From positions 1-64,000 of the forward strand of contig JAPPFM010000056.1 in NCBI GenBank assembly GCA_028821605.1: 64,000 nt of DNA, given 5' to 3'. Shown here piece after piece: positions 1,903 through 63,524 of the stretch. The notes under the pieces are model-generated. The model was not told where the DNA came from. It saw nothing but the letters and a program-made list of their open reading frames with translations, and did no database searches. Position 1 is the first letter of the stretch; each line of letters starts with the position of its first letter. This DNA comes from Candidatus Poribacteria bacterium. Lineage in GTDB: Bacteria > Poribacteria > WGA-4E > WGA-3G. The position numbers and the translations under genes were made by a program.

Positions 1903-3835
<1,933 letters not shown>

Positions 3836-21012: not shown

Positions 21013-21126
21013 GATTTATTAAGACGAACTACAAAAGTGGAACTTTTACCGTGATAAGGTGTGTCTATTTTCTGCAAACGGGCAGAGGGCATTAATTCTG
21101 GACACAATATCACAAAGGAGTCAGCC

Positions 21127-21333
21127 GTGTTAGGAGCAAAACAACAGTGGTGCCCTCGCTGCCAAAGGCACGTACAAACAGAGCAAAAGCAGTCCTTTGT
21201 TGGCAGACAGAAAGAGCTCGTCAGAATTATTATTACCTGCTTCAAGTGTCGTACAACGCTATCAAGCAAAACAACCAGCGCAGCGGTGCTTGAACAAAAC
21301 GAAGACGCTTCGACTGAACAGACGGAACAGTAG
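21127..21333 (+). CDS. Small zinc-ribbon protein
   Basis: A 68-residue protein with two CxxC pairs (WCPRC near residue 9 and CFKC near residue 37), arranged like a zinc ribbon, and an acidic Gln/Glu/Thr-rich tail. GTG at 21127 is supported by AAAGGAG six bases upstream; earlier in-frame starts lack such a site. Function unknown: similar ribbons occur in RNA-binding proteins and regulators. It lies 114 bases after mnmE and 75 before the selenoprotein. Confidence 0.7.
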   Translation: MLGAKQQWCPRCQRHVQTEQKQSFVGRQKELVRIIITCFKCRTTLSSKTTSAAVLEQNEDASTEQTEQ

Positions 21334-21408
21334 TGCAGGTGTGCTAATGATACTCCTGAAATTAATGGAATCGTAAATTAAAACGTTATTTAAAAAAGGA
21401 GAGAACCT

Positions 21409-22317
21409 ATGTTTAATTCTGTTTTTCGCCGCATTTCACTCGGTGTCTTACTACTGATGGTAGGCACAGTCCCCGCGCTTATTGCGAGCGAAGGGGTTAA
21501 ATGGGAAAAATCGCTTGAGGATGGCATGAAGGAAGCCGCGAAGACGGGCAAACCGGTTATGCTGGACTTCTACACTGACTGGTGAGGCTCATGCAGTCGG
21601 CTGGATGCCGAAACATTTACGGACGCTCGCATTGTCGAAATGTCCAAAAAGTTTGTTACCATCAAGGTCAACCCTGAGGATACCGAACACCCCGAAAATC
21701 GGGAAGCCCTTATGCGGTATGAAGTCCGCGGTTATCCGACAATCGTTTTCGCGAGTTCGGACGGTGGCATGATTGCCCAGCAAGAAGGGTTTATCTATCC
21801 GAATGAATTTGCTCCGGTGATAGAGGCTGCTTTGGAGAAAGAGGAAGTTTTCTCGAAAAAACTCGCCAAACTTGAGAAGAAACCGGACGATGCCAAACTT
21901 AACGCGCAAGTTGCGCTTACCTATTTAGAGCGGAAGCAGCTTGAAAAAGCGGTCCCGTTCAGCGAGAAAGCGTTTGAACTTGACCCAAGAAACAAATCAA
22001 GGCTCATCCCAAACTTGCATAACCAATTGGGACTCGCTTACGCCACAGCACTTGGTGCTATGCTTGAAAGTCCTGAAGCAGAGGCGACCTTTGAAAAAGC
22101 AGTCTCTCACTTCAAAACTGTGATAGACAAGTATCCAAAAAGCGATCTCCATGAACACGCTCAGTTTTACCTCGGTGTGACGTACGGCATCAAAGGGCAT
22201 TTTAAAGACGCGATTGCGGTGCTTGAAAAGTTAGCACATCATACCTCGGACGAGGATATGAGACGGAGTGCTGAAGCGAGATTAGAACAGGTCAGAGATT
22301 TGGCGGAGTCCAAATAG
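21409..22317 (+). CDS. Selenocysteine-containing thioredoxin-fold protein with TPR region (probable)
   Basis: Read through one in-frame TGA at 21583-21585, this is a 302-residue exported protein. Residues 1-27 form a signal peptide. The next segment reads KPVMLDFYTDW, then TGA at residue 59, then GSC: exactly a thioredoxin active site WCxxC with selenocysteine for the first Cys. The fold continues across the TGA with LDAETFTDARIVEMSKKFVTIKV and the cis-Pro motif RGYPTIVF (about residue 113). Residues 160-300 contain TPR-like helices (LNAQVALTYLERKQLEKAVPFSEKAFELDP). The ATG at 21409 has AAAAGGAGAG upstream. The likely role is envelope thiol or selenol redox chemistry. Alternatives are a sequencing error or a broken gene. 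Confidence 0.8.
21586..21611 (+). promoter_or_regulatory. Candidate bacterial SECIS hairpin just after the TGA codon
   Basis: TCGGC at 21597-21601 pairs with GCCGA at 21607-21611 around the loop TGGAT. The loop starts 16 bases after the TGA and has a G in its first two positions, as in published bacterial SECIS models. An alternative fold pairs CAG (21594-21596) with CTG (21601-21603) and GGC (21586-21588) with GCC (21607-21609). It is a manual fold without energy calculation. Confidence 0.5.
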
Positions 22318-62827: not shown

Positions 62828-62909
62828 GGGGGTATGCTAGAGCGGTCAAATAGGGCAGACTGTAAATCTGTTGGCTATGCCTACGGTGGTTCGAATCCAT
62901 CTGCCCCCA
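62828..62909 (+). tRNA. tRNA-Tyr (anticodon GTA)
   Basis: 82 bases with a class II variable arm. The acceptor pairs GGGGGTA with TGCCCCC. The anticodon arm CAGACTGTAAATCTG yields GTA. The T arm is GGTTCGAATCC. No encoded CCA. Confidence 0.94.
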
Positions 62910-63030
62910 TCAGTTTTTAGCCGAAAGTAACTTTTAGCGAGGTTTGGTCGGACGCTTGATCTGCGGCGCAGCTTGCAGATTTCCCTAAAGTGTTTTGCTG
63001 TAGATTTCAGGTCACCATCCTTGGTATTGT

Positions 63031-63103
63031 GCGGGAGTAGCTCAGCTGGTAGAGCATTGGCCTTCCAAGCCATGCGTCGCGGGTTCGAATCCCGTCTCCC
63101 GCT
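63031..63103 (+). tRNA. tRNA-Gly (anticodon TCC)
   Basis: 73 bases. GCGGGAG pairs with CTCCCGC. The anticodon stem TTGGC/GCCAT encloses CTTCCAA, giving TCC. The T arm is GGGTTCGAATCCC. Confidence 0.95.
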
Positions 63104-63121
63104 TGTGTGAGTTTGTGATTT

Positions 63122-63194
<73 letters not shown>

Positions 63195-63221
63195 CCACTT
63201 ATCGAAAGTAGAGTGTTTATT

Positions 63222-63374
63222 ATGCCTAGAGACATTGTAACATTAGCATGTGATGTATGCAGTCAACGGAATTATGTAACAACTCGGAACCGTCGGACAA
63301 ACCAATCTCGATATGAACGAAAGAAATACTGTCGGTTCTGTCGGAAGCATACCCCCCATAAGGAAACGCGATAG
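63222..63374 (+). CDS. rpmG: Ribosomal protein L33
   Basis: A 50-residue protein of the large ribosomal subunit. It reads MPRDIVTLACDVCSQRNYVTTRN, then KKYCRFCRKHTPHKETR. The two CxxC pairs make it the zinc-binding (C+) form of L33. Location between tRNA-Thr and tRNA-Trp upstream of secE is common, but the tuf gene usually before it is absent. The longer open frame starting at 63153 lies within tRNA-Thr and is not used. Confidence 0.96.
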   Translation: MPRDIVTLACDVCSQRNYVTTRNRRTNQSRYERKKYCRFCRKHTPHKETR

Positions 63375-63438
63375 ATAACTTCGTGAATTAGGTGACGCAG
63401 GTAATGTAAGCACCTTGTCGTCCCTTAAAACATCTTGC

Positions 63439-63512
63439 AGGCCAGTAGCTCCAACGGCTAGAGCGTCGGTCTCCAAAACCGAATGTTGGGGGTTCGAATC
63501 CCTCCTGGCCTG
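63439..63512 (+). tRNA. tRNA-Trp (anticodon CCA)
   Basis: 74 bases. AGGCCAG pairs with CTGGCCT. The anticodon stem TCGGT/ACCGA encloses CTCCAAA, giving CCA. The T arm is GGGTTCGAATCCC. It lies 12 bases before secE. Confidence 0.95.
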
Positions 63513-63524
63513 CCTTTTAATCTT

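Follow-up and report, generated by a model that had tools for sequence, protein, structure and literature searches.

A thioredoxin-like selenoprotein gene with a C-terminal TPR domain and a predicted signal peptide in Candidatus Poribacteria

The gene was found in a 64,000-nt stretch of Candidatus Poribacteria DNA (the window), to which all window coordinates refer. When TGA was read as selenocysteine (Sec, U), positions 21409-22317 of the forward strand were translated into 302 aa with one internal TGA only and a TAG stop. The TGA fell at residue 59 in the context DFYTDW-U-GSC; this retranslation agreed with the preliminary description, which had reported a frame open save for one TGA at the first active-site position (W-U-G-S-C). 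The features of the locus are as follows.

21397..21403, + strand: putative RBS-like AGGAGAG just 5' of the ATG, read from the sequence
21409..22317, + strand: selenoprotein gene, Sec at residue 59, coding for a predicted secreted thioredoxin-like domain and a C-terminal TPR domain (translation, Pfam, orthologues, AlphaFold)
21409..21486, + strand: predicted signal peptide region, residues 1-26 (hydropathy peak, pLDDT <50)
21502..21750, + strand: Thioredoxin_7 (DsbD-gamma-like) domain, residues about 32-114 (Pfam, structure matches)
21583..21585, + strand: TGA codon 59, selenocysteine, first position of UxxC (TGA in 50/50 aligned genes)
21592..21594, + strand: TGC codon 62, resolving Cys of UGSC (Cys invariant in the alignment)
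21598..21610, + strand: SECIS-like hairpin CGGC-TGGAT-GCCG, extended to 21597-21611 by a U-A closing pair (covariation, codon constraint, folding)
21871..22314, + strand: TPR domain, residues about 155-302 (Pfam, AlphaFold model, structure matches)

The 5' neighbours were yidC, jag, mnmE and a small CxxC zinc-ribbon-like ORF, and the 3' neighbour was an rluB-like pseudouridine synthase on the opposite strand (names read from translations). In tblastn, mnmE, the small ORF and rluB adjoined the gene in most loci of the genus and in many of the order, so that orthology is supported by position. The small ORF itself (21061-21333, + strand; CPRC...CFKC) was conserved throughout the order in its place between mnmE and the selenoprotein gene. 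A scan for consensus promoters and terminators yielded nothing of use.

A thioredoxin fold followed by TPR-like repeats, as proposed earlier from the sequence, was confirmed by Pfam models above cut-off and by the predicted fold. Thioredoxin_7 matched residues 32-114 (4.6e-16) and Thioredoxin_2 was also detected (3.2e-15); PF13899 and PF13098 scored 59.2 and 56.8 bits against a gathering cut-off of 27. TPR_2 and TPR_8 exceeded their Pfam cut-offs at residues about 163-195, and TPR models spanned residues about 155-290. AlphaFold, run on the family alignment, returned a mean pLDDT of 91.2 and showed a DsbD-gamma-like thioredoxin fold joined to a TPR superhelix, with U59 placed just before helix 60-69 in a thioredoxin-like manner. 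Low confidence was confined to residues 1-26. The signal peptide claimed for this region is predicted from hydropathy and the low pLDDT only. Among the best structure matches of the thioredoxin domain (Foldseek/VIA) were DsbD-gamma, DsbH and related exported domains, with Z about 15-16. The TPR superhelix of the model matched solved TPR domains, e.g., YbgF 2xev; rows such as LGN for this part were taken as generic TPR similarity.

The same domain order, N-terminal thioredoxin then C-terminal TPR, is found in CnoX (YbbN), and E. coli YbbN (3qou) was among the Foldseek matches. The protein might therefore be a selenoprotein that acts mainly as a CnoX-like holdase or redox chaperone and not as a general disulfide reductase; Caulobacter CnoX combines holdase and reductase activities in one protein (PMC6282202). 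We consider this role unlikely, however. The fit to 3qou was poor when whole chains were compared (TM 0.29-0.31, rmsd 20; whole chains only), the thioredoxin domain was nearer to DsbD-gamma, and predicted secretion would part the protein from GroEL and DnaK. CnoX/YbbN also differs in being cytosolic, in occurring in Cys or Ser forms and in belonging to another thioredoxin subfamily. An exported thiol-disulfide oxidoreductase is the preferred reading.

The TGA was conserved far beyond the genome of the window. In a search of 60 relatives, one TGA was present in all orthologues from the genus and order that covered the site. With the further searches below, the frame with its single TGA was seen throughout the genus, family and order, showing that it did not arise by chance. 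When 85 Poribacteria genomes were searched with a profile, an in-frame TGA was present in the orthologue of 73/73 orthologue-bearing genomes: 38 of the genus, 3 others of the same family, 17/18 of the sister genus, 14 of other families of the order and 1 elsewhere in the class. A 74th genome with a profile match (G076) had a DsbD-like protein only. The codon was read directly in 56 loci and in eleven further loci (one with two genes), and was taken for the remainder from stop counts reported by the search. TGA was seen in 55 of the 56 directly read loci, a few of which were duplicate records; the exception was L049, with TGC. About six sister-genus genomes carried a second gene copy, also with TGA. 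A read error does not explain the TGA, which is shared by over 70 genomes from separate assemblies. The residue before Sec varied, T or Y occurring besides Trp (e.g., DT-U-GFC and DY-U-GAC, among L014, L017, L018, L019, L074 and L076), and in L042 and L093 U-PSC replaced U-G-x-C.

Within the phylum, the profile search of 85 Poribacteria genomes turned up no orthologue with Cys. Homologues with Cys at residue 59, which the preliminary description had proposed to align, do exist. L049 from Chthonomonadaceae is a full-length thioredoxin-TPR homologue with Cys at the U59 site (WCAFC), and L088 is a Poribacteria paralogue of the Cys form (CYWC) aligned with U59. The latter (G047:C6:52500-56500) is an odd fusion seen in one genome, an 799-codon frame that joins an ECF sigma factor, the Cys-type thioredoxin-TPR part and a TolB-like propeller. 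Judged from these sequences, the choice of Sec is fixed throughout a bacterial order, without Cys replacement.

A premature stop, leaving either a pseudogene or a truncated protein made from a second start at ATG 21640, would agree with the table 11 ORF listing, in which only a 225-aa ORF starting at 21640 appears for this gene. Such a reading is very improbable: over 70 genomes, some at only about 40% identity, retain the frame and its TGA, with conservation at the protein level on both sides of the TGA. Further, the second start (M78) was not conserved in the alignment, and a protein begun there would have neither the active site nor the first half of the thioredoxin fold.

The absence of Sec machinery had been named beforehand as an observation that would refute a selenoprotein; in fact tRNA-Sec, selA, selB and selD were all found in the same genome. 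The tRNA-Sec gene (C46:127230-127319, anticodon TCA) scored 78.1 bits against a cut-off of 47, and selB (C46:127606-129501) lay 286 bases from it. Complete selA (600 bits) and selD genes were found on C49 and C30. The selD gene (L079:1700-2742, - strand, G000) had its own in-frame TGA (CAG-U-ASK), as did all full-scoring Poribacteria selD genes listed; the TGA in GUASK is at the usual Sec site of SelD. Other matches to the tRNA-Sec model in this genome scored below the cut-off and were set aside as ordinary tRNAs; a tRNA-like cluster in the window (62828-63513, + strand), also below the cut-off, is probably of the same kind. Across the phylum, tRNA-Sec was detected in 73/85 genomes, a number equal to the gene count by coincidence, the two sets being different: several genomes of the same class had tRNA-Sec but no gene, and a few had the gene without detected tRNA-Sec or selA, most of these assemblies being fragmented. 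The genome of L049 was not used as a Sec-free control because its SelB match was ambiguous (109.6 bits against a cut-off of 242).

No point was found in favour of another amino acid at the TGA, whether by reassignment of the code or by a suppressor tRNA that inserts Trp or Cys; this reading is likewise highly improbable, as the TCA-anticodon tRNA is a bona fide tRNA-Sec, the TGA aligned with Cys in L049 and L088, and, in keeping with the earlier remark that TGA is an ordinary stop nearby, 5/10 neighbour genes ended in TGA and 0/10 had one internally.

The hairpin CGGC-UGGAU-GCCG, absent from the preliminary description, adds independent support for the selenoprotein reading. It starts 13 bases after the TGA, with the loop from 16 nt after the UGA. 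Codons 64-68 (CGG CTG GAT GCC GAA) were nearly invariant though degenerate; Leu65 was CTG in 50/50 genes, although only 16% of the Leu codons of neighbour genes, and 17% of those in the gene family, were CTG. Synonymous constraint over codons 63-70 was significant (Mann-Whitney p=0.0007, uncorrected for relatedness). The four stem pairs were kept in 97.2% of cells (n=44 sequences). In 7/44, pair 2 changed from G-C to A-U, through an Arg to Gln replacement in one arm and a synonymous Ala change, GCC to GCT, in the opposite arm. Compensatory cells numbered 7 against a mean of 1.1 in shuffles and 0 when the pairing was slid by 1-3 columns; the sequences being related, the 7 cells may represent one or two events. 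Random synonymous recoding of the peptide produced a hairpin of equal strength and SECIS geometry in 0.6% of cases, by a criterion (four G-C pairs) chosen after the hairpin had been seen. The Cys homologues L049, L099 and L081, together with L088, kept the LD peptide, but the hairpin bases were absent.

The published bacterial SECIS model calls for an apical loop of 3-9 nt, an upper stem of 4-16 bp, a G at loop position 1 or 2, a UGA-apical loop distance of 16-37 nt and an energy of at most -7.5 kcal/mol (PMC13188914). The loop of 5 nt and the stem of 4 bp (5 in the window, counting U-A) were within these limits, the second base of the UGGAU loop was an invariant G, and the 16-nt spacing equalled the lower limit. 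The energy was borderline against -7.5: the 15-nt hairpin alone gave -7.4 kcal/mol with the window sequence and -5.9 kcal/mol with variant L013, and 45 nt from the UGA gave -9.5. A conserved longer lower stem was not found below the hairpin (48% of cells paired), and the plain RNAalifold consensus contained part of the apical helix only.

UxxC thioredoxin-like selenoproteins had been called a known class, and the literature agrees: marine metagenomes are rich in them (PMC1088965, PMC2398784), Trx-like 1-3 UxxC selenoproteins having been described there (PMC2398784), and a 2026 review lists the thiol:disulfide interchange protein PF13098 UxxC (PMC13188914). The protein studied here shares with them the DsbD-gamma/PF13098 fold, Sec at the first active-site position and a SECIS, here the SECIS-like hairpin, immediately downstream. 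A TPR domain is unmentioned in those papers (PMC2398784, PMC13188914), whereas the Poribacteria protein has TPR and Sec fixed across the order. The literature searched had no text linking TPR with UxxC thioredoxin-like selenoproteins and no earlier description of such a protein in Poribacteria, and no NCBIfam model fitted, so the TPR extension is indeed unusual. Residues about 28-150 resembled the C-terminal domain of DsbD (TM by target 0.73-0.77, VIA Z about 15); DsbD-gamma, however, terminates a membrane-bound electron carrier, whereas the Poribacteria protein stands alone, with predicted export, Sec and TPR. The best NCBIfam match of the thioredoxin domain was TsoB (NF045694, rhodanese/DsbD fusion-like; 87 bits), far under its 805-bit cut-off and with the DsbD-like end alone aligned. 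NF041199, the Trx7/PDZ (seleno)protein, also combines a Thioredoxin_7 selenoprotein with an interaction module, but this is PDZ rather than TPR, and at 30.4 bits against a cut-off of 300 the protein is not a member. This is a new domain architecture inside an established selenoprotein class and no new class.

The gene is very probably a true bacterial selenoprotein gene, with Sec at U59 in a predicted exported thiol-disulfide oxidoreductase that probably uses its TPR domain for docking. Sec decoding itself is near certain, and the protein is probably secreted to the periplasm. SelB carrying Sec-tRNA(Sec) would bind the hairpin after the UGA, so that selenocysteine is inserted at residue 59, and the product would then be exported. 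U59 would attack a client disulfide and C62 would resolve the intermediate, with a selenenylsulfide in the oxidised state; the most likely work is reduction or isomerisation of oxidised thiols of envelope proteins. Re-reduction of the protein would most likely fall to the membrane DsbD of this genome (C55, motif WCAAC). The TPR superhelix probably serves as a docking site for clients or a partner, which would keep a fast Sec reductase beside its substrates. We infer this cellular role, namely the periplasmic location, the partnership with DsbD and the TPR function, from homology only.

Other selenoprotein candidates were observed in the same genome. The Thioredoxin_7 candidate at L085:1252-2580 (+ strand, G000:C50) has PDZ domains and contains TGA in frame twice (FR-U-VP-U-ESC); at 397 bits it passes the NF041199 cut-off of 300 and belongs to that family. 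At L101:1572-2177 and about 2200-3600 (both + strand, G000:C40), two adjacent genes code for exported thioredoxins that carry dockerin type I repeats; in each, TGA takes the first active-site position (T-U-PFC and G-U-PSC). The first of these had one TGA in most of the genus genomes searched, followed by a GACC-GGT-GGTC hairpin. The dockerin-linked candidate seems more unusual than the TPR one.

Sec and Cys are usually pictured as exchanging frequently, and the retention of Sec across the order without Cys replacement is contrary to that picture. Tentatively, and with somewhat less than even confidence, Poribacteria may possess a set of exported thioredoxin-fold selenoproteins, with a Sec head and varied docking modules (TPR, PDZ, dockerin), that together would make up a selenium-based disulfide system of the envelope or the extracellular space, in which Sec is fixed and has essentially never reverted to Cys. 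For the phylum, the literature searched names only selA and selB, enriched in sponge symbiont bins (PMC5649159), and no products; the gene adds a selenoprotein family of new architecture. Unless they allow for Sec decoding, annotation pipelines will truncate or lose the gene, together with its Sec active site, in Poribacteria genomes.
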